Shown here piece after piece: positions 19,891 through 29,277 of a DNA stretch of 58,627 bases. Position 1 is the stretch's first letter; each line of letters begins with the position of its first letter. Under the pieces are notes generated by a model. The model was not told where the DNA came from. It saw nothing but the letters and a program-made list of their open reading frames with translations, and searched no databases. The position numbers were made by a program, and so were the translations under genes. Origin of the DNA: Oscillospiraceae bacterium (GTDB lineage: Bacteria > Bacillota > Clostridia > Oscillospirales > Oscillospiraceae); assembly GCA_017412765.1 (NCBI GenBank), contig JAFPWN010000071.1, positions 1-58,627 of the forward strand, given 5' to 3'.

Positions 19891-19916
19891 ACGAAAGGAA
19901 CTTTAAAGCATAGAAT
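19891..19916 (+). promoter_or_regulatory. possible mother-cell sigma (SigE/SigK-type) promoter of cotJ
   Basis: CATAGAAT at 19909-19916 resembles the CATAnnnT -10 box of SigE/SigK promoters, and AC at 19891-19892 lies 16 bp upstream, as in SigK -35 elements. No sigma-A-like boxes are seen in front of cotJAB. In Bacillus cotJ is mother-cell expressed. The assignment is tentative. Confidence 0.4.
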
Positions 19917-19953: not shown

Positions 19954-20430
19954 TTGGACGAAAAGAAAGAGCCGATGAACGATAACGGCACTGACGAATG
20001 CACATGGCGCTTCGGTGAGCTGCCTGCCTGCGCTCCGCTGTCCGTTCCCTACGTTCCGGTGCAGAAGGACGATGAGCCGCGCTACTCCCCCGCCGACGCG
20101 CTGAGCCGCGGCACGCTGTTTCCCGGTCTTGAGCTGCCCTTCAAGAACACCGTAAACCGCACGAATCCCTACGCCGGCACTCCGCTCGGCGAGGTCATGG
20201 CGCTCCGCTTTATGGTAAATGAGCTCCAGCTCTATCTCGATACCCATAAGGACGACAAGGACGCCTTCAAGCTCATGAAGGACACCATAACCCTCTCAAA
20301 AGAGGCAAACAAACGCTTTACCGAGCGCTTCGGGCCGCTGTCTGTCTACGACCTTGAGGATATGGACTCCTACGAGTGGATCGAAGGCCCGTGGCCGTGG
20401 GAGTTCAATCAGAGAGGAGCGACCGCCTGA
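19954..20430 (+). CDS. cotJA-cotJB: CotJA-CotJB fusion spore-coat protein
   Basis: A 158-residue protein. Residues about 20-65 match CotJA (YVPVQK, then LSRGTLFPGLELPF). Residues about 75-158 match CotJB (MVNELQLYLDTHKDDKDAF, the RFGPLSVYD box and the C-terminal GPWPWE). In Bacillus and most Clostridia these are two genes, and here they form one frame. The start is TTG at 19954 with ATAGGAGTG upstream. The stop overlaps the cotJC start (TGATG). The product should be an inner spore-coat component made in the mother cell, assembling with CotJC. Confidence 0.85.
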   Translation: MDEKKEPMNDNGTDECTWRFGELPACAPLSVPYVPVQKDDEPRYSPADALSRGTLFPGLELPFKNTVNRTNPYAGTPLGEVMALRFMVNELQLYLDTHKDDKDAFKLMKDTITLSKEANKRFTERFGPLSVYDLEDMDSYEWIEGPWPWEFNQRGATA

Positions 20431-20621
20431 TGTTCAGCTATACTAAGAGCCTGCAATATCCCGTAAAGATCCGCAGCACGAATCCCGCGCTTGCGAAGTT
20501 TATTATCAGTCAGTACGGAGGTCCGGATGGCGAGCTTGGCGCTTCCCTGCGCTATCTGAGCCAGCGGTTTTCCATGCCGTATCCCGAGCTGAGAGGTCTC
20601 CTTACCGATATAGGTACAGAG
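20430..20621 (+). CDS. cotJC: cotJC, 5' part (codons 1-64), interrupted by a mobile element
   Basis: These 64 codons match the N-terminus of CotJC-type manganese catalase (LQYPVKI, ISQYGGPDGELGA, RYLSQRFSMPY, GLLTDIGTE). E35 in GELGA is the first metal ligand of the family. The frame then runs into the mobile element and ends in unrelated sequence at 20798. The remaining 134 codons, starting with the exact next residue, are at 25221-25625. Joining them gives a 198-residue protein of the normal family length with no residue lost, so this is a reversible interruption rather than decay. The unjoined fragment lacks the other metal ligands and cannot be active. Confidence 0.93.
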
Positions 20622-20632
20622 GGGTCAGAATG
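20605..20632. promoter_or_regulatory. left attachment site of the cotJC element
   Basis: It contains the 12-bp core TAGGTACAGAGG (20611-20622), shared exactly with the right end, followed by the inner arm GGGGTCAGAATG (20621-20632). The arm overlaps the recombinase stop codon (20627-20625). CCGA precedes the core at both ends. Confidence 0.85.
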
Positions 20633-22103
20633 GCGAAAAGGCGATCGGTTCCGGAAGGGATTTCAGCTTCACCTCGATCCTGCCGTCCTTACAGACCGTC
20701 ATGCGTTCAAGAAGCGCTCTGTAAAAGCTCTCCCTGTCCGTATCTCCGTTTACTATCTCCGTGACCTTTTCTCTCAGATTCTCGCCGCAGGACTCTGAAA
20801 TACTCCCGAGCTTCTCTCTGAGCGCCTTTATTTCACAGTCATATCGTCCCTTCATCAGGCGCATCTCTTCTTCCGTAATAGTTCCGGAAAAGAAGCTGTC
20901 GAGAACCGCCTCTTTTTTTCTGTTCAGCCTTTCTATCTCAAGCCTCAGCTTATCCGCGCTATCTTTGCCCGAATTGACCGCCTCGGAGGCAAGAATAGTC
21001 AGCTCCCGGATAAGTTCATCGTAATTTAATTCGAGAGAGGCGATCGCTTTTTTCATTATCTCCATCGCCTTATCGTCTCTTATCCCTCTGCCTATCCCGC
21101 AGCCCTTTACACCGCTTTTCACCGCCGCAGAACAGTACCAGCGCCGTACTGCGCCTTTTTTACAGCGCGGGACAAAGCTCGCTCCGCACTCTCCGCATAT
21201 TATTTTCCCCGAGAACGCATATCTGTTTGAATGACCGGACGAATATTTGCCGCGGAGATTGCGCTTTTCAAGCTCTTTCTGCACTTCATTCCACAGCTCG
21301 CGGTCGATTATAGGCTCATGGTGATTGTTGATCACAACAAGCGGCTCCTCGCCGTGGTTATACTTTTTTTCGTGAGAGAGATAATCCGGCGTTATCGTCT
21401 TTTTCTGAACGAGGTCGCCTGCGTATTTTTCGTTTTTCAGGAGCTTTATTATATACGCTCTCCTCCAGTGAGTATTTCCGGCTCGAGTTCTGAATCCTGA
21501 TTTTTCAAGCTCGCGCGAGATAGCGGATGCGCTCTTTTTCTCTACCCCGTATTTATAAAAAATCAGCCTCACGAGCTCTGCCTCGTCGGGATCTATTGTT
21601 ATTTTTCCGTTCTTCACGTCGTAACCGAGGAGCGACCTGCCGAAAACTACGCCGCGCTCCATCTGCCTCGTCTGTCCCCACTTGACGCGCGCGGAGGTCT
21701 TTCGGCTCTCCTCCTGAGCTATCGAGCCCATGATCGAAAGCCGAAGCTCCGCGTCCGGCTCAAGCGTGCTTATCCCGTCGCTCATAAAAATAACTCCCAC
21801 ACCCAGGGCTCTCAGCTCTCGGGTGTAGGAGATTGTGTCAAGTATATTGCGGGAAAAGCGGCTGACCTCCTTCGTAACGATCAGCTCGAACAAGCCCTCC
21901 CGCGCGTCCTCGATCATTCGGTTGAACTGAGCGCGATTTTTCGTGGAGGTGCCTGTGATCCCCTCGTCGGCGTAGGTGCGGTAATGCTCCCACTCCGGTT
22001 TTCTGTCGATATATTCCTTAAAGTATCTCTGCTGCGCCTCAAAAGAATTCGCTTGATCGTCCTTTTCCGTTGAAACGCGGCAGTAAACCGCAACTTTTAT
22101 CAT
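20625..22103 (-). CDS. large serine recombinase (site-specific, SpoIVCA-like)
   Basis: A 492-residue protein. The resolvase domain (about 1-145) has catalytic Ser11 in YCRVSTE and the SRFSRN arginine box. A recombinase domain (about 155-270) and a zinc ribbon (CGECGASF...WYC, about 295-325) follow, then a coiled coil near 375-400 as in large serine integrases. It should cut at both ends of the surrounding element and join the flanks. The ATG 22103 has GAGAGGTG upstream. Its 3' end reaches into the left attachment arm, 3 bp from the core. The promoter is unclear; a sporulation-specific one would be expected if excision is developmental. Confidence 0.95.
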   Translation of the reverse strand: MIKVAVYCRVSTEKDDQANSFEAQQRYFKEYIDRKPEWEHYRTYADEGITGTSTKNRAQFNRMIEDAREGLFELIVTKEVSRFSRNILDTISYTRELRALGVGVIFMSDGISTLEPDAELRLSIMGSIAQEESRKTSARVKWGQTRQMERGVVFGRSLLGYDVKNGKITIDPDEAELVRLIFYKYGVEKKSASAISRELEKSGFRTRAGNTHWRRAYIIKLLKNEKYAGDLVQKKTITPDYLSHEKKYNHGEEPLVVINNHHEPIIDRELWNEVQKELEKRNLRGKYSSGHSNRYAFSGKIICGECGASFVPRCKKGAVRRWYCSAAVKSGVKGCGIGRGIRDDKAMEIMKKAIASLELNYDELIRELTILASEAVNSGKDSADKLRLEIERLNRKKEAVLDSFFSGTITEEEMRLMKGRYDCEIKALREKLGSISESCGENLREKVTEIVNGDTDRESFYRALLERMTVCKDGRIEVKLKSLPEPIAFSPF

Positions 22104-22159
22104 ATCATCACCTCTCGAAAACTGTCATCTCTCCCTTCTTTTGTAAAAAGATTATAAAA

Positions 22160-23953
22160 TCAGACCGTGATAATAAGGTTATTCGTATTCATCGTATTAG
22201 TATAGGAAATATCCTTCGCAAGCTTCATGACAATGCGAATGCCGATATTTTTCTCCGGATGCTCGGGATCGAACGACCACTTCTGTGCCTTTTCGCAGAG
22301 GTCGAACTTCTCGCAGTCGTCGCGCATACGCAGTATGACGTTCTCACCCTTGACAAGAACGCGCACGTCGAGGTGGTGCGGCTTGTCGCCCGTAAAGCCG
22401 TGTTCGATGACGTTTCCCGCCATCTCCTCGACGCAGAGCGCAAGCCTGTTGGATTCCTTGCTGCCGAGCTTATGCTCCATGCAGAAGCCGCTGACGTCCT
22501 CCGAAAAAGCCACTACCTCATCCATCGTATTGAGCGAGCGCTCGATTCGATCCTCCTCCGGCACGCCGAAGTCGCTCTTGAGCATCATGTGCGAGGCAAG
22601 ACCGTGACGCGTCTCGTCCTTCCTGACGGCGGCGATGATAAAAAGCACGAGGCTCAGGATCGCCTGACCGCAGAAATACGAGAGCCAGATGCCCATCGCG
22701 CCGAACGCCGAGCTGAGCAGGAACGCCGCGGCAGCCGTGAAAGCGACCTCAATGCCAATGTTTACTATAGTTGAAGCGAAGATCCTCGTTATCGCCTGCA
22801 GGTAATTTGCGCACATGACGTTGAACGCGAAGAACGGCAGCGCGAAGGAGTAGCAGCGGATCGCATCGACCGTCATATTCTGAGTATTTCCTGCCTCGGG
22901 GACAAACAGCGAGGCTATGAACGGCGCGGCAAGGAATACCGCGACGGAGATAGCGGTAACTCCGATGAGGATATCCGAAAGCGCTGTTTTAACGACCTCC
23001 TCAAGACCTTTTTCATCCTGTTCTCCGACCATCATGCCGCCCATTATCGAAACTGCGCCGCCGATGCCCCAGCCGAGAGAAGTGATTGTGAACGAGAGAG
23101 TGCTCTGTGCAGAGAGCGCCGTGACGCCGGTGCTGCCGATAAGAGAGAGCACGAGAGTGTTCATAAAAATCGGAAGCAGCGTGCGGCTCAGCATACATAC
23201 GGCGCGCGGAAGTCCGCCCTTTGTAAGGTCGCGGAGCTTGTCAAAGCGGATCGCGGAGAACGAGAAGCGGAACAGACCGCTCTTTTTCGTAAAGTGAGTC
23301 AGAATGATGATGAACGCGATTATATGGCTTGCAGAGCTTGCAAGCGCCATTCCGTAGACTCCGCCGTGGAATACGTAGACGTTCAGAAGATCTCCGATAA
23401 CGTCCGTGACAGCCATGAGCGCGGAGGCGATCTGCGGTCTTTTAGTATCGCCGTCGAGCTGGAGTATCGGCGTCAGAATGACGAAGAAAACGAGTGCCGG
23501 CGCGCCGATCACGACGCCGCGCAGATAATTGACAGTCTCTCTGTGAAGATCGACGGCGTCAGCCTTTGCACCGAAAAGGCTTGCGACAGCGTCCGGAAAC
23601 AGAAGTCCGATAATCGTAATAGTAACGGAAAGAATGGCTCCGATAAAGACGGTAAGCGAGAAAACGGCGCTCGTCTCCTTTGAGTCGCCCCTGCCGATCG
23701 CGCTCGTGCACATCGCGGTGCAGCCTATCATAAGTATTCCGCTGATAATGCTGAGAATACTGAAATAAGGGAGGCAGACGCCAACCGTGGCGAGCTCTAT
23801 CTGACCGAGGCTGAAACCGGTGATAATGCCGTCAATAAGGGATGACAGCGCGCCGGAAAGCTCCGCGATCATCATCGTTATCATCGTGGTCTGGAACAGT
23901 CTGCGAATGATCGAATCATTTTTAGCCGTTTTCGATTTTATTTCAGCGCTCAT
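22160..23953 (-). CDS. MATE-family transporter fused to anti-sigma-type HATPase domain
   Basis: A 597-residue protein starting at ATG 23953 (GAGGAG 8 nt upstream; a GTG six codons earlier lacks a site). Residues about 15-440 form 12 membrane segments of the MATE/DinF type. Residues about 470-597 are a histidine-kinase-like ATPase domain of the RsbW/SpoIIAB kind: N-box LCVEEMAGNVIEHG with Glu and Asn present, RMRDDCEKFD, and a weak GIRIVMKLA G-box. A drug/Na+ efflux fold coupled to a cytosolic anti-sigma-like kinase is unusual. It lies inside the cotJC element, 14 bp after the HD gene. Substrate unknown. Confidence 0.85.
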   Translation of the reverse strand: MSAEIKSKTAKNDSIIRRLFQTTMITMMIAELSGALSSLIDGIITGFSLGQIELATVGVCLPYFSILSIISGILMIGCTAMCTSAIGRGDSKETSAVFSLTVFIGAILSVTITIIGLLFPDAVASLFGAKADAVDLHRETVNYLRGVVIGAPALVFFVILTPILQLDGDTKRPQIASALMAVTDVIGDLLNVYVFHGGVYGMALASSASHIIAFIIILTHFTKKSGLFRFSFSAIRFDKLRDLTKGGLPRAVCMLSRTLLPIFMNTLVLSLIGSTGVTALSAQSTLSFTITSLGWGIGGAVSIMGGMMVGEQDEKGLEEVVKTALSDILIGVTAISVAVFLAAPFIASLFVPEAGNTQNMTVDAIRCYSFALPFFAFNVMCANYLQAITRIFASTIVNIGIEVAFTAAAAFLLSSAFGAMGIWLSYFCGQAILSLVLFIIAAVRKDETRHGLASHMMLKSDFGVPEEDRIERSLNTMDEVVAFSEDVSGFCMEHKLGSKESNRLALCVEEMAGNVIEHGFTGDKPHHLDVRVLVKGENVILRMRDDCEKFDLCEKAQKWSFDPEHPEKNIGIRIVMKLAKDISYTNTMNTNNLIITV

Positions 23954-23967
23954 TTTTATCTCCTCTC

Positions 23968-24837
23968 TCACTCTTGCCAGGGCAGAATAACGACTTTCGA
24001 CTGAGCTATGCGGAATTCAGAACGCTTTTCACTGACGTCGCGGCAATAATCAAGGGTATGCTGTATCTTTTCCGCAAGCTCCTCGATAAGCGGGATATAC
24101 TCCGGCGACTTTGGCTTTGTCAGAAGCGCGATACTGTCCTCACGAATCTCCACCCTGCGGATGGATTCGTGCTTTCCGAACTCATGGACGCTGACGGCAT
24201 CGGTGTACTTCGAAGTATCGAATAAAAGCTCGGGATTGCGATCCGATGCTACGTCGATCTCATCGGCAAGCCTCACGATCGCGGAAAGATACGCCGTTCT
24301 TATGACTCCGTACTCACTTTCAAGATCGGGGTACTCCTTTTCATCATAAAGATCGGTCTTGCGGTGGCCGCGTGAAACCTGAATTATCGCAAAAAGCATC
24401 TCCTCGTTCGGAATATCGAACAGCGAGGCATATTTTCTTATGAACAGCCCGCTGTATTCATTGTGAAAGGCGCGCGTGACGTTTCGCGTGTCATCCAGCG
24501 AATGGGTCTGAAGATAATCTCCGAAATCTATCTCCCTGGAGAAAAGCTCATAGTCCTTTGCGTTAACGCCCATTCCTATATCGTGGAGATAGCAGCCCAT
24601 GATGATAACGTAGCACTCCGCGGCGCTCAGCTTCTCAGCCTGGCTCGTACCTACAAGCTTGTTGCAGAAATCGAGAACGTCCATGCTGTGCAGAATGGAG
24701 TGATCGGTAAAGTCCGGAAAGCGCGGAAGATATGATTCAAGCATATTCTGAAGGACAAATGCGCTTTCCTTTGTTCTCTGATGCAGCTCCGGCGATAATT
24801 TCATGAGCCTTCTTTCCAAAAGGAAGTCTTCGATCAT
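23968..24837 (-). CDS. HD-domain protein (putative metal-dependent phosphohydrolase)
   Basis: A 289-residue cytosolic protein. Residues about 40-110 carry HSILHSMDV and GCYLHDIGMG, the H...HD metal-ligand pattern of HD hydrolases. Residues 165-200 contain LSAIVRLADEIDVASDR, a third helix seen in HD/ATPase-type proteins, and the rest is alpha/beta. The substrate cannot be told. It is upstream of, and probably co-transcribed with, the MATE-HATPase gene. Its place inside the excisable element suggests a paired signalling function with that protein. Confidence 0.75.
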   Translation of the reverse strand: MIEDFLLERRLMKLSPELHQRTKESAFVLQNMLESYLPRFPDFTDHSILHSMDVLDFCNKLVGTSQAEKLSAAECYVIIMGCYLHDIGMGVNAKDYELFSREIDFGDYLQTHSLDDTRNVTRAFHNEYSGLFIRKYASLFDIPNEEMLFAIIQVSRGHRKTDLYDEKEYPDLESEYGVIRTAYLSAIVRLADEIDVASDRNPELLFDTSKYTDAVSVHEFGKHESIRRVEIREDSIALLTKPKSPEYIPLIEELAEKIQHTLDYCRDVSEKRSEFRIAQSKVVILPWQE

Positions 24838-24921
24838 TTAGCTCAGCTCTCTTTCGTGAGGATCAGTCATAAATATTTTGTATAATTATATCATATTGTT
24901 ACGAAAAATGAAATATATTAG

Positions 24922-25095
24922 TTAAATTTTATTTCTGAGCTTCTCGACGGCGTATCTGAATTGCGTATCGTTCAGGCTCCCGCTGTCCTTCAGAGAGAGC
25001 AAAACGGCCTTTTTATACTCAAAAAGGAACTCTTTTGATACATTTGCCCCGATTTTACCAGCCCCGGAAACCGCTTTATCTTCTATACGCGTCAC
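24922..25095 (-). CDS. small SHOCT-like protein (57 aa)
   Basis: A minus-strand frame starting GTG at 25095, with GGAGGGGG directly before it, and ending TAA at 24922. The C-terminal half reads KAVLLSLKDSGSLND then TQFRYAVEKLRNKI, the short helix-hairpin-helix pattern of SHOCT-like peptides found in many mobile elements. It lies between the HD gene and the right attachment site, filling an otherwise gene-free stretch. It could be an accessory factor such as a recombination directionality factor, or a nucleic-acid-binding regulator; both are guesses. The ribosome-site spacing is poor. Confidence 0.55.
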   Translation of the reverse strand: MTRIEDKAVSGAGKIGANVSKEFLFEYKKAVLLSLKDSGSLNDTQFRYAVEKLRNKI

Positions 25096-25193
25096 CCCCC
25101 TCCACAGGAGAGTTTATGCGCGCAAAACGCCGTTTTATTTCATTTTACATCTCTCATCCGGGCGGCAAGGAAAAAGAATTAAGCTCCCCTCCT

Positions 25194-25221
25194 CATTTTG
25201 ACCCCGACGTAGGTACAGAGG
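25194..25221. promoter_or_regulatory. right attachment site of the cotJC element
   Basis: The inner arm CATTTTGACCCC (25194-25205) is followed by GACG and the 12-bp core TAGGTACAGAGG (25210-25221). The arm is the inverted complement, 11 of 12, of the left inner arm at 20621-20632. Confidence 0.85.
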
Positions 25222-25625
25222 AGCTGGGACATCTTGAAATGGTCGGCAGCATAGTCCAGCAGCTCACGCGCGACATGACCGAGGAGGAGATCAAAAAAGC
25301 CGGCATGGAGGCGTATTTCGTAGACCACACCGCCGGAGTTTATCCGCAGTTTGCCTCCGGCACTCCGTGGACAGCCGCGACCTTCGCCGTCAAGGGCGAC
25401 GTGATTGCAGACCTCACCGAGGATCTCGCCGCCGAGCAGAAGGCGCGCGTGACCTACGACAACATCCTGCGCCTTTCCGACGACCCCGACGTAAACAACG
25501 TGATTCGCTTCCTGAGAGAGCGCGAGGTTGTGCACTTCCAGCGCTTCGGTGAGGCGCTGAGGCTCGCAACGGAAAAGATGGATAAAAAGAACGTCTACGC
25601 AATAAACCCGGCGTTCGATAAGTAA
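25221..25625 (+). CDS. cotJC: cotJC, 3' part (codons 65-198)
   Basis: 134 codons of manganese catalase beginning with the second metal-ligand box EELGHLEMVG, then IVQQLTRDM, a central helix pair and REREVVHFQRF with the last Glu/His pair. The box continues directly from GTE at 20621, giving the canonical GTEELGHLEM. In-frame sequence extends 5' to ATG 25035, but those residues are element sequence with no homology or ribosome site, so independent translation is unlikely. A terminator follows at once. Confidence 0.93.
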   Translation, partial: ELGHLEMVGSIVQQLTRDMTEEEIKKAGMEAYFVDHTAGVYPQFASGTPWTAATFAVKGDVIADLTEDLAAEQKARVTYDNILRLSDDPDVNNVIRFLREREVVHFQRFGEALRLATEKMDKKNVYAINPAFDK

Positions 25626-25713: not shown

Positions 25714-25875
25714 CAGACTGTAGACAAAAAGGAAAAAGCGTTGGATAAAGGAGGCGGGGATCTGTGAAGGGGCCGGCCGAGAGGCCTCTTCACGTCGCAT
25801 AACCCGCCCGCAGGCGTCATATTTTGCGCTCCGAGAGCGCAAAATATGTTCGATGCGAAGACTTTGTCGACGCAT
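25714..25875 (-). repeat. 161-bp palindromic element, copy A
   Basis: Full-length copy, in opposite orientation to copies B and C. Ends are CAGACTGTAGAC and GTCGACGCAT. Inside are two long hairpins: GTGAAGGGGCC with GGCC...TTCAC (the 3' arm carries one T for C), and CATATTTTGCGCTC with GAGCGCAAAATATG. There is no TSD hairpin at this copy. It ends 20 bp before the phosphatase ATG. Confidence 0.88.
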
Positions 25876-25895
25876 AGAATTATCGGAGGTCATCT

Positions 25896-26693: not shown

Positions 26694-26704
26694 CAGCGCT
26701 CCTT
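26673..26704 (+). terminator. terminator hairpin of the phosphatase gene, overlapping its stop
   Basis: AAGGAGCGCTGTC pairs with GACAGCGCTCCTT; the loop TTATCT and following G hold the TGA stop. The U-tract expected after it is missing because repeat copy B follows directly. Confidence 0.7.
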
Positions 26705-26705
26705 G

Positions 26706-26866
26706 ATGCGTCGACAAAGTCTCCGCATCGAACATATTTTGCGCTCTCGGAGCGCAAAATATGACGCCTGCGGGCGGTTTATGCGACGTGAAGGGGCCTC
26801 TCGGCCGGCCCCTTCACAGATCCCCGCCTCCTTTATCCAACGCTTTTTCCTTTTTGTCTACAATCT
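26706..26866 (+). repeat. 161-bp palindromic element, copy B
   Basis: Runs from ATGCGTCGAC to GTCTACAATCT. It is nearly identical to copy C and in inverted orientation to copy A. It lies between two copies of the phosphatase terminator hairpin. Confidence 0.9.
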
Positions 26867-26867
26867 G

Positions 26868-26897
26868 AGGAGCGCTGTCAGATAAGACAGCGCTCCT
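26868..26897 (-). terminator. second copy of the hairpin, downstream of the STAS-kinase gene
   Basis: Same stem as 26673-26704, but the loop reads AGATAA, the reverse complement of TTATCT, so this copy is inverted. It lies 4 bp from the STAS-kinase stop and may terminate that operon. Confidence 0.6.
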
Positions 26898-26901
26898 TGT
26901 C

Positions 26902-28083
26902 TCATTGTTCAAATGCTTTGAGCATTTTTTCAGCATGCGGGAAAACGTTTTTGCGGACTCTGTCCACGTAGACCGGATGATACTCCTTCGGAAGCCTCGG
27001 GTGTGCCATGCTGACGGTGAGATACATCATCGTCGCAAAGGGCTTGACTTTCTCGTCCATCTCCTTAGACTTCTCTTCGCTGCCCCAGTAGACTCTCGAG
27101 AATATCTTCCAGAAGCGCTCAGCCTCGGCGTAAGTAATGCCGACAAAGCATATCTCATCGGGCTTCTCGGCTCGGATATCGGCGCCGATCAGATTGTAGA
27201 CCATGTAGCTGTGTATTATATCTATGATAGGATTACCCGCGCCAGCGTCGCCGAGGTCGATAAGAATAAGCTCGCCGCCGGAGACCATAACGTTTTTGGG
27301 GTGATAATCGTTGTGTATAAAGCGGTTCATATGCGGTATCGTGTTGTAGATGCGATGCATAAGCTCGATCTCATCCGCTGTAAAATCGTCAGTGAGTGCG
27401 TCGATGGTTTCGTGCAGCTTTTTATCCGCTCTCTGCATATTTCCCTCGGGGATCTCGATTTCGTGCATTTCGCGCAGAAGCTTTGCGGACTTTTCGGCAA
27501 GCTCCGGAAGCTCTTCGGGATTCTCGCGGATTCGCTCAGCTATCGTCTTTGCCTTCAAAAGCTCGTAGATCGTGCCGTAGCTGTCTCCGCAGCGCACGGT
27601 ATCGAACGGTATCGCGCACGGAACGCCGAGAAGAAACGCCTTTTTGCTCGCTTCGCGCTCCTCCTCGATCACGTCGAGAGTAAGCCCCGTGCGGAAAACC
27701 TTTATCATCTCATCGGGAGTAAAGCGATAGACCTTGCCGTTCGCGCCCTGACCGAGCAGAGAACAGCCCTCGACCGATACCGAGCGGAGCTTTTTGTGTA
27801 TCTCGAGCATTTCTGAAAAGCCGGTGACCTCAAGTATCTCATATACCTCAGAGGATACGTTCACGAGCTTCACGCTCGCTCCCCTCAGCTTTTTGATCTT
27901 AAGAACCACGCGAAGTCCGGCTGAGGAGATGTACTCAAGCTTATCGCAGTCGAGGATCACTTCCGCGCCGGGATAATTATTCAGCTCCGTTATCGCCTCG
28001 TTTTCAAACTTGGCAGCGTTTGAGGAGTCGATATGCCCCTCAAGGAAAAGCGTAAGAACGCCGTTATCGTACCTGGAATTCAT
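26902..28083 (-). CDS. STAS domain fused to APH-like kinase (copy 1)
   Basis: A 393-residue protein. Residues 1-95 are a STAS anti-sigma-antagonist domain with the phospho-acceptor box LEYISSAGLRVV. Residues about 105-393 have an aminoglycoside-phosphotransferase/choline-kinase-like fold: GQGANGKVYRF (glycine loop), FIHNDYHPKNVM (catalytic Asp) and LILIDLGDAG (metal-binding Asp). The kinase might phosphorylate the STAS serine or a small molecule; neither is shown. It is 9 bp downstream of a paralogue, and both follow the arabinose genes on the same strand. GAGGCG precedes ATG 28083. Confidence 0.83.
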   Translation of the reverse strand: MNSRYDNGVLTLFLEGHIDSSNAAKFENEAITELNNYPGAEVILDCDKLEYISSAGLRVVLKIKKLRGASVKLVNVSSEVYEILEVTGFSEMLEIHKKLRSVSVEGCSLLGQGANGKVYRFTPDEMIKVFRTGLTLDVIEEEREASKKAFLLGVPCAIPFDTVRCGDSYGTIYELLKAKTIAERIRENPEELPELAEKSAKLLREMHEIEIPEGNMQRADKKLHETIDALTDDFTADEIELMHRIYNTIPHMNRFIHNDYHPKNVMVSGGELILIDLGDAGAGNPIIDIIHSYMVYNLIGADIRAEKPDEICFVGITYAEAERFWKIFSRVYWGSEEKSKEMDEKVKPFATMMYLTVSMAHPRLPKEYHPVYVDRVRKNVFPHAEKMLKAFEQ

Positions 28084-28092
28084 TTTTTCGCC

Positions 28093-29277
28093 TCACATCG
28101 TCTTGAATAAATATCTGATCGTCTGCTCGTTGGGTATGACAACAGCGCGCAGGAGATTATCCATAATATGCTTCGCCATCTTCAGTGAGCGCTCAGAGCC
28201 GGAGCCGACAACGAGCACTACGTTAAACGCGAAGAGAAGTCCGAGCTTCTTATAATATGCTTCAAGCTCGGAAGGATCGGTTATGCCTGTGTACTTCATA
28301 AAGAACATATTGCCCACTCTGCTTATCATCTCCGCCGGCATTCCGACGCTGCTCTCAATTATCGAGCCGGAGGTTTTCGGTGCGGAGATCATATCGCGGA
28401 AGATGGAAACAAGATCGCAGATCGCCGGACCCATCGTGACCTCGGGCATATCGATGAGAACGAGCTCGCCGTTCTGTATCATGATGTTGCCGGGGTGCAG
28501 GTCATTATGCGTAACGGTATCAGCCTCGGGAATGTCGTCGATAATGCTGTGAAGAAGGCTTATCTCCTCCGGTGTGCACCACTCCCCAAGATTATCGGCA
28601 CGCAGGTGAAACACTGACTGAATTGATGAAAAGCTTCCCTGCGGCACGTGGGTAGTGTGCAGCGTCTTCGCAAGAGCGACGTACTGGTCGACGTACTCCT
28701 CAAGCTTATCGGGGTTGTCGCGCATCGCGTGGCCGAGGGTGTCTGACTTGAGCATCTCAAAAACAACGCCGAGGCAGTCGCCGACCTTTACGGTGTCGTA
28801 AGCGATGACGGACGGAATGCCGTTCACAAACGCCGTCTTTGCAAAGCTGCGCTCTCTGTCGATATCGGCAAAGCCCATCCACGGCTTATAGACCTTTACG
28901 ATGGTATCCTCGTCAAGTCTGTAAACAGCTCCATTTCCGCCCTGACCGATCTTCTCCTTGCCCTCGACGGAGATCTCACGGAGCTTCTTTTTGATATTCA
29001 GCATCTCGGTAAAGCCGGTAACGTCAAAGATCTCGTAAACCTCGGGCGAAACATTCACAACCGTGAGCTTGTCGCCCTTCTCCTTCTTGATCTTGAGGAT
29101 CACTCGAAGTCCCGCTGAGGATATGTACTCGAGGTCGCTGCAGTCAACGTCAATATCTGCGCCGGGGTACTGCGAGATAGCGCCCATCGCCTCCGCTTCA
29201 AACTGCGCTGCGTTCGACGAGTCGATATGTCCATCAAGATAAAGTGTCAGCTTGTCATTTTCAAATCCGGTTTTCAT
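28093..29277 (-). CDS. STAS domain fused to APH-like kinase (copy 2)
   Basis: A 394-residue protein with the same layout as its neighbour: STAS domain with LEYISSAGLRVI, kinase glycine loop GQGGNGAVYRL, catalytic box VTHNDLHPGNIM and LVLIDMPEV. The DxG position differs from copy 1 (DMPE versus DLGD). It is only 15 bp after araD, so probably transcribed with the arabinose operon. AAGGAG lies 12 nt before ATG 29277. Similarity across the full length shows tandem duplication followed by divergence. Confidence 0.83.
   Translation of the reverse strand: MKTGFENDKLTLYLDGHIDSSNAAQFEAEAMGAISQYPGADIDVDCSDLEYISSAGLRVILKIKKEKGDKLTVVNVSPEVYEIFDVTGFTEMLNIKKKLREISVEGKEKIGQGGNGAVYRLDEDTIVKVYKPWMGFADIDRERSFAKTAFVNGIPSVIAYDTVKVGDCLGVVFEMLKSDTLGHAMRDNPDKLEEYVDQYVALAKTLHTTHVPQGSFSSIQSVFHLRADNLGEWCTPEEISLLHSIIDDIPEADTVTHNDLHPGNIMIQNGELVLIDMPEVTMGPAICDLVSIFRDMISAPKTSGSIIESSVGMPAEMISRVGNMFFMKYTGITDPSELEAYYKKLGLLFAFNVVLVVGSGSERSLKMAKHIMDNLLRAVVIPNEQTIRYLFKTM

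Follow-up and report, generated by a model that had tools for sequence, protein, structure and literature searches.

In the window analysed here, positions 1 to 58,627 of contig JAFPWN010000071.1 of an Oscillospiraceae bacterium (assembly GCA_017412765.1, genome G000), the manganese-catalase coat gene cotJC is divided at codon 62, where an element of 4,599 bp separates its two parts. The split is best explained by a non-phage gene-intervening element of 4.6 kb whose integration, at the GG in the codon for Gly62, was the work of a large serine recombinase, and we consider it probable that the element is skin-like, that is, excised in the mother cell at sporulation. A previous interpretation of the window from its letters alone (the sequence-only reading) had already seen a cotJC divided by some 4.6 kb in the arrangement of sigK/skin and spsM/SP-beta. 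The split, the anatomy and the skin-like interpretation all stood, the last of these strengthened by the same element in congeners, by purifying selection, by in-frame joins in relatives and by a mother-cell-type signal before the small gene orf57. Going beyond that interpretation, the window exemplifies a widespread class, cotJC having several such sites and recombinase groups, and orf57 likely encodes a directionality factor.

Two matches to the manganese-catalase family PF05067 were found, at 20430-20621 (family positions 1-65) and 25206-25586 (positions 61-200), and these two parts are the sole matches at E<=0.001 in the whole genome, in which no second intact cotJC that might serve as a backup was present. 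Both ends of the element carry the 12-bp direct repeat TAGGTACAGAGG (20611-20622 and 25210-25221), of which the window holds no further copy with one mismatch allowed. A chance origin of the repeat was rejected by a shuffle test (0.08 expected; two copies in 1 of 100 shuffles). Joining the parts inside the repeat gave 597 bp, or 198 codons and a stop, and confirmed the proposed in-frame restoration: an uninterrupted CotJC of 198 amino acids that reads ...LLTDIGTEELGHLEM..., matches the family and has residues aligned to the ligand positions of PDB 6j42. E35 is on the 5' part and E65 and H68 are on the 3' part, so the break parts the first ligand from the second ligand box as had been suggested; all three align with identical residues of that structure, and we take them to be metal ligands.

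The position of the break itself had to be revised. It had been placed between codons 64 and 65, and homology reaches codon 64 because the repeat is common to both ends; by the dyad symmetry of the circle junction, exchange is predicted to take place at the GG in codon 62 (20613-20614 and 25212-25213). This junction, CATTTTGACCCC-N14-GGGGTCAGAATG, is an inverted repeat (11/12) centred on the GG of the Gly62 codon, which is not visible in the integrated form and emerges when the ends are joined as a circle. The dyad score around the GG was 16/25, with a background maximum of 14, and such a near-palindromic circle attachment site (attP) at the predicted junction supports the favoured reading. 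The features of the interrupted gene and its junctions are as follows.

20430..20622, + strand: cotJC 5' part, codons 1-64, including E35 (PF05067 positions 1-65, E 4.9e-19; no stop; 98% identical to congeners G026 and G028)
25210..25625, + strand: cotJC 3' part, including E65 and H68 (PF05067 positions 61-199, E 9.1e-32; no stop; 96-99% identical to G026 and G028)
20611..20622, + strand: core of the left attachment site (attL), with the predicted crossover GG at 20613-20614 (12-bp repeat; dyad centre of the circle junction)
25210..25221, + strand: core of the right attachment site (attR; 12-bp repeat)
20621..20632, + strand: GGGGTCAGAATG, left half of the attP inverted repeat (11/12 complementary to 25194-25205)
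25194..25205, + strand: CATTTTGACCCC, right half of the attP inverted repeat (from the sequence and the dyad analysis)

The two congeners, G026 and G028, carry the same element genes in the same order and at the same cotJC site. Compared with the window, identity was 88% for the HD-CE domain protein, 88% for the MATE transporter, 68-69% for the recombinase, 96-99% for the cotJC parts and 41-44%, over the aligned part, for orf57. The cargo MATE was detected at E<=1e-100 in 3 of the 34 genomes of the genus, exactly the three element carriers. In these three species, both cotJC parts are under strong purifying selection: they contain no stops, the ratio of nonsynonymous to synonymous divergence (dN/dS) was 0.010-0.107, and in the comparison of the corresponding proportions (pN/pS) they fell at or below 21 intact cotJC genes, 20 from the genus and one from the family (medians 0.10 and 0.117). 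SpoIVA is present in all three genomes, as are two whole-length sigma-E/K-like genes without stops, which score below the cut-off of the sigma-K model.

Breaks in cotJC across the order

Breaks in cotJC occur at three main places, with different recombinases. Among 147 genomes of the order, 121 match CotJC, and among the matches listed with at least 50% identity (110 genomes, the rows of this count having been entered by hand), 70 genomes have an intact cotJC and 40 do not. Left out of this count were the 11 of the 121 genomes with no listed row at or above 50% identity, two of which (G051 and G081) have cotJC pieces elsewhere. The 40 non-intact genes, again among the matches listed, comprise 22 cut at site A (about codon 62; G058 and G059, read as cut a few codons further on, are included), five at site B (about codon 30), eight at site C (about codon 136), three at both A and C, and two others, G065 and G057, which carry stops in cotJC. 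Two genes served as controls in the same 147 genomes: adk was found in 135, with 1 partial, and spoIVA in 129, with 5 not whole. Of these five, G037 looks truly split; in G123, G083, G052 and G140 the pieces are truncated or cut, in several cases at the end of a contig. The match of G041 begins at position 21, and this genome was scored as whole. Within the genus of the window, counted by eye, 30 of the 34 genomes match cotJC; the gene is intact in 20 and split in nine, of which site A accounts for three, site B for five and site C for one, and in the remaining genome it is cut at a contig end. The alignments of G076 (51%) and L148 (from codon 13, 49%) were rejected as intact genes, since both overrun the break into unrelated sequence.

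Within the fetched stretches, a recombinase lies beside the break in 10/11 site-B cases (not G157) and in 5/9 site-C cases (not G076, G122, G124 and G147; the stretches of the first three run to the contig end). A recombinase tree gave one group per site: A with 17 rows (99/96), B with 8 rows (100/100) and C with 5 rows (100/100). This tree was built from 30 hand-chosen rows, those of site A having been pre-selected by likeness to the window recombinase, and the recombinases of the second G058 break and of G059 were left out. Some genes are cut twice: three pieces were seen in G058 and L148, and a middle piece between two breaks in G071, G159, G119 and L136.

The group to which the window recombinase belongs is tied to codon 62 of cotJC. 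An alignment search returned at least 552 relatives in named genomes; among the best 80 of these, 77 loci have a cotJC part with its end or start between codons 52 and 74, and none of the 80 shows an intact cotJC. In the 70 of them with a cotJC 5' part, the median distance from recombinase end to break was 72 bp, and it was at most 200 bp in 61. The 80 loci include contigs of G026, G028, G037 and G160, and their record titles name Flavonifractor, Pseudoflavonifractor, Intestinimonas, Roseburia, Caldicoprobacter and Ructibacterium. At E<=1e-100 the recombinase was found in 19/147 genomes of the order; among the matches listed, it occurs in 18 of the 40 genomes without an intact cotJC and in none of the 70 with one (Fisher test, 5.7e-10; the table was read off two listings, with the carrier G081 unclassed). 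The remaining three of the 80 loci, L107, L118 and L145, have close relatives of the site-A recombinase and no cotJC fragment in the stretch examined.

An exact join was tried on selected two-sided site-A cases, namely the window, 12 recombinase loci, five fetched genomes and then L114, L148 and G180; L095 and G160 share DNA and were counted as one case. By script, 20/21 gave an open in-frame join at the same GG, and for the remaining case, G180, inspection by eye gave an in-frame join in which Val replaces Thr. Dyad scores across the site-A cases, each the highest among the GG pairs that give an open frame, ranged from 10 to 22 of 25. In an earlier, unguided test based on shared repeats and covering breaks at all sites, 7/11 were joined in frame.

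Two genomes show a comparable split in another sporulation gene. On contig C13 of G182 (Flavonifractor sp. An10), some 46 kb interrupt spoIVA near codon 402 (22670-23881 and 70213-70494; L273 and L274), with a serine recombinase near the 3' part and no shared repeat found that would give a join; in G037 it is split at about codon 409, also with a recombinase nearby. As to the content of other cotJC elements, L089 and L094 have ordinary-looking chromosomal genes between the cotJC parts, including the only full-length RNase Z-like gene of the genome. Essential genes inside elements were considered as proof of restriction to the mother cell and this was rejected: the RNase Z-like gene is absent in the other three of five carriers, so that its essentiality is not supported.

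Gene content of the element and signals before orf57

The element holds four genes, all on the minus strand, and is preceded by the upstream gene of the cotJ operon.

19909..19916, + strand: CATAGAAT, sigma-E-like -10 candidate upstream of the cotJ operon (block GCATAGaATG in G000, G026 and G028, with one change in G028; putative promoter)
19954..20430, + strand: cotJA and cotJB fused in a single open reading frame (ORF) that starts with TTG and forms the upstream gene of the cotJ operon (Pfam CotJA at residues 30-63, CotJB at 78-150)
20625..22103, - strand: large serine recombinase of the site-A group, 492 amino acids (Resolvase, Recombinase and Zn ribbon domains)
22160..23971, - strand: cargo, MATE transporter fused to HATPase_c_2 (domain match)
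23968..24837, - strand: cargo, HD-CE domain protein (PF24391, E 1.3e-38)
24885..24893, - strand: TGATATAAT, candidate promoter of vegetative type, with an extended -10, for HD-MATE-recombinase (kept in G000, G026 and G028; putative function)
24922..25095, - strand: orf57, small conserved protein with a GTG start, candidate recombination directionality factor (from the position of its homologues upstream of the recombinase)
25111..25118, - strand: CATAAACT, mother-cell-sigma-like -10 candidate before orf57 (CATA enrichment; CATAAAC before orf57 in G026 and G028)

The recombinase gene abuts the left end of the element, as the sequence-only reading had it, with its stop 2 bp from the left repeat. 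Its residue S11, presumably the catalytic serine, is invariant in five homologues. The interrupted gene, cotJC, is one that we take to be expressed in the mother cell. Among the four element genes, comparison with PHROGs recognised no structural phage gene: the recombinase matched integrase/invertase families, the MATE part matched one family of unknown function, and the HD-CE protein and orf57 matched none. A role of the cargo in defence was considered and rejected, the PADLOC matches being partial only (the HD protein to RT_UG24, E 1e-8; the recombinase to PtuB, E 9e-4).

A homologue of orf57 is found upstream of the recombinase and on the same strand in 110/119 loci, a set that includes repeat contigs and viral loci. 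Overlaps of a few bases between the two genes are frequent; the window has 2.8 kb of cargo between them. Among the 109 named orf57 loci, 13 pairs share long stretches, mostly because the same contig was reached twice. The window orf57 matched no Pfam or PHROGs family, and five homologues gave chance-level Pfam matches at best. Judged from its position and conservation, orf57 is a candidate directionality factor shared by the largest recombinase group.

Upstream regions of orf57 were usable in 72 cases, 59 of them non-redundant, with start codons picked by script (for G028, L076, the scripted start differs from that suggested by the alignment). CATA was found 15-36 nt before the start in 25/59 regions; other permutations of these letters averaged 8.6/59, the highest count being 14, in three permutations that overlap CATA, and CATA was the top tetramer in the window of 22-36 nt. 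A composite sigma-E score reached p<=0.05 in 11/59 regions (Fisher 9e-5), and in 14/59 of the upstream regions of cotJA, used as a positive control (1e-6).

Some further observations concern the surroundings. Downstream of cotJC, at 26902-29277 of the window, are two tandem genes of like build, with a STAS domain and an APH-type kinase, the first assigned by family match and the second by its similarity to the first; the MATE protein of the element also bears an anti-sigma-like ATPase domain. Two similar intergenic stretches, in inverted orientation, flank the PTP gene at about 25720-25893 and 26700-26885, as noticed from like ORF translations, with a perfect 14-bp hairpin at 25818-25848.

Proposed developmental excision and its alternatives

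On the sites, reading frame, selection and association described above we would build the following scheme, in which the timing, the cell type and the role given to orf57 are proposed. At sporulation, a mother-cell sigma factor would transcribe orf57, and the recombinase would be expressed from the same promoter or from the vegetative-type one. The product of orf57, acting as directionality factor, would turn the recombinase towards excision, and attL and attR would recombine at the GG, releasing the circle and joining cotJC, so that CotJC would then be produced in the mother cell. When the mother cell dies, the circle and its cargo would go with it, whereas the forespore, and hence the spore, would keep the element; the cargo (MATE-HATPase and HD-CE) would thus stay in the germ line and be lost only from the cell that dies.

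Several observations weigh against this scheme. For the excision, and its confinement to the mother cell, that the sequence-only reading had also implied, no joined cotJC and no circle was found in the assemblies; its suggestion to look for the circle junction in related genomes was followed with a narrow attP pattern, which hit no viral contigs and 0/394 genomes. The join trial was not a blind test, as the script sought GG pairs giving an open frame, and the dyad score did not exceed its own background maximum in 5/20 cases (L077, L099, L105, G106 and L114). In the unguided test no joining repeat was found for 4/11 breaks (G059, G025, G022 and the second of G058), which have other sites or cores and were placed by eye. 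One genome, G065, combines the recombinase with a cotJC fragment bearing two stops. The orf57 homologue was not detected in 9/119 loci, the median p of the sigma-E score over the 59 elements was 0.38, the promoter score of the window orf57 was weak (6.9), and the SpoIIID-like signal is thin (ACAAG in 7/59, the average for all letter orders being 2.35). Synonymous divergence (dS) between the window and G026/G028 is uneven, and this speaks against simple vertical descent: it is 0.13-0.22 in the flanking PTP gene, 0.6 in cotJAB, 0.6-1.2 in the cotJC parts and 1.1-1.3 in HD and MATE. The element may therefore have been acquired separately or exchanged; its versions are no less diverged than the DNA around them, as would be expected after a long stay at the site and also after such an acquisition or exchange. 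Some of the constraint on cotJC may also predate the insertion, and mutants of cotJC-like genes are described as mild (PMC11222575, PMC12122855). As to a possible free circle, the phage record MT839280 was considered and rejected as an attP, because it holds a cotJC 5' part and is thus an integrated fragment.

One unlikely alternative is that a mobile element of the ordinary kind, once integrated, inactivated a coat gene that the cell can spare, and excises only to move, and not developmentally. Recombinase relatives were found on IMG/VR contigs with cotJC fragments (11/80 loci), the cotJC elements include long ones (about 43 kb at site B in G006), the uneven dS permits separate acquisitions, and coat catalase mutants are described as mild (PMC11222575). 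What speaks against a mere knock-out is that both cotJC parts are open and strongly constrained in the three species sharing the element, that mother-cell-like promoter signals are enriched before orf57, and that the window element is without a recognised structural phage gene. Quite unlikely, too, is stochastic excision in the manner of phase variation, by which a fraction of all cells would have an intact cotJC with no tight developmental control. The vegetative-type extended -10 before HD-MATE-recombinase would suit it, as would the yin element, excised at all time points according to PMC10747680; the absence of a circle from 394 genomes, by the narrow pattern, and the enrichment of a mother-cell-like -10 before orf57 argue the other way.

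Very improbable is the assembly of two separately made cotJC polypeptides without excision. Both frames are indeed open, but the 5' frame continues within the element as far as 20798, the 3' frame is listed as starting at a TTG that belongs to the element, the break falls just before the motif that we take to bind the metal, and the attachment sites are kept. An assembly artefact has next to no probability: the window comes from a 74-contig assembly, but the same structure recurs in independent assemblies, and adk and spoIVA were seldom broken in the same genomes (1 partial of 135 and 5 not whole of 129).

Developmental excision in the mother cell thus remains the reading that we favour, and with somewhat less confidence we lean towards a broader statement. 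In Clostridia, cotJC would be a dedicated site of programmed DNA elimination, with at least three separate groups of serine recombinases, each specialised for its own codon of the gene; to produce this one coat enzyme, the mother cell would need one or two exact excisions in about a third of one order; orf57, under a mother-cell sigma factor, would be the directionality factor of the largest group; and ordinary genes would be kept as germ-line-limited DNA. Because relatives across the order carry similar elements in cotJC, this may be a widespread programmed DNA removal in bacteria and, if true, developmental DNA excision would be a common trait of gut spore-formers and not a curiosity. Carriers include strain-named records, such as Flavonifractor sp. 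An10, Pseudoflavonifractor capillosus An386a (in both of these cotJC is broken at site A) and Ructibacterium gallinarum DSM 107454, so that tests in culture are possible. The cotJC elements are also a source of many natural pairs of recombinase and attachment sites and of a candidate family of directionality factors, and they raise the question of why the coat catalase is so favoured as a target.

Comparison with known elements

The kind of element proposed here is already known, in skin, SP-beta, vfbin, vrin, gin and yin (PMC5595907, PMC4191935, PMC10747680, PMC6957869). From skin proper the present element differs in its insertion in cotJC, not sigK, and from the prophage type of skin and SP-beta in that no structural phage gene was found in the window element. 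Another recombinase that we take to excise an element from a gene is XisF (NF041201), of the fdxN element of heterocyst cyanobacteria; the window recombinase scored 116.5 bits with that model, far below the family cut-off of 375 bits, and the target of XisF is a nitrogen-fixation gene.

The sequence-only reading had left it undecided whether a cotJC-splitting element had been described; no description was found in a literature search that reached few subscription papers. The main text of PMC4191935 and PMC10747680 does not mention cotJC, and in a survey of large serine recombinases (PMC10083194) catalase and spore are absent from the main text, with sporulation only in a reference title. The nearest case found in the literature is the phi027 prophage of Clostridioides difficile, whose attachment site is next to the CotJC relative cotG / CDR20291_1465; there, the CotJC-like gene is a 678-bp ORF downstream of attR, and developmental reconstitution is unmentioned in the passages concerned (PMC11222575, PMC12122855).

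SP-beta in spsM, vfbin in spoVFB, vrin in spoVR and yin in yabG are likewise cases of sporulation genes rejoined by site-specific recombination (PMC4191935, PMC10747680, PMC6957869), but they are prophages or prophage-like, each described at one site. Similar in its machinery to what we propose is the skin-Cd element in sigK of C. difficile, which pairs a serine recombinase with a small factor: the recombinase is constitutive, and the 72-amino-acid directionality factor CD1234, to which the candidate orf57 would correspond, is under sigma-E and SpoIIID (PMC5025042). Its excision restores a mother-cell gene, as we propose for cotJC. Whereas skin-Cd has 19 genes and lies in a sigma-factor gene, the window element lies in the gene of a coat enzyme, and the two sigma-E/K-like genes are whole.

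The gin element in gerE of Bacillus cereus ATCC10987, for which sporulation-specific reconstitution was demonstrated, is like the cotJC element non-phage, interrupts a sporulation gene and has a serine recombinase (GirC) and an additional factor (GirX; here orf57 is the candidate), as well as a short core (9 bp in gin) and an inverted repeat in the attachment site (PMC5595907). It differs in its target, gerE, and in having three recombinase genes; for the cotJC element the likeness to GirC/GirX is by description, and excision is predicted from the sequences. The literature examples considered here are each described for a single target gene and a single site in it (sigK, spsM, gerE, spoVFB, spoVR or yabG); the cotJC elements occupy several codons of one gene, in many genomes.

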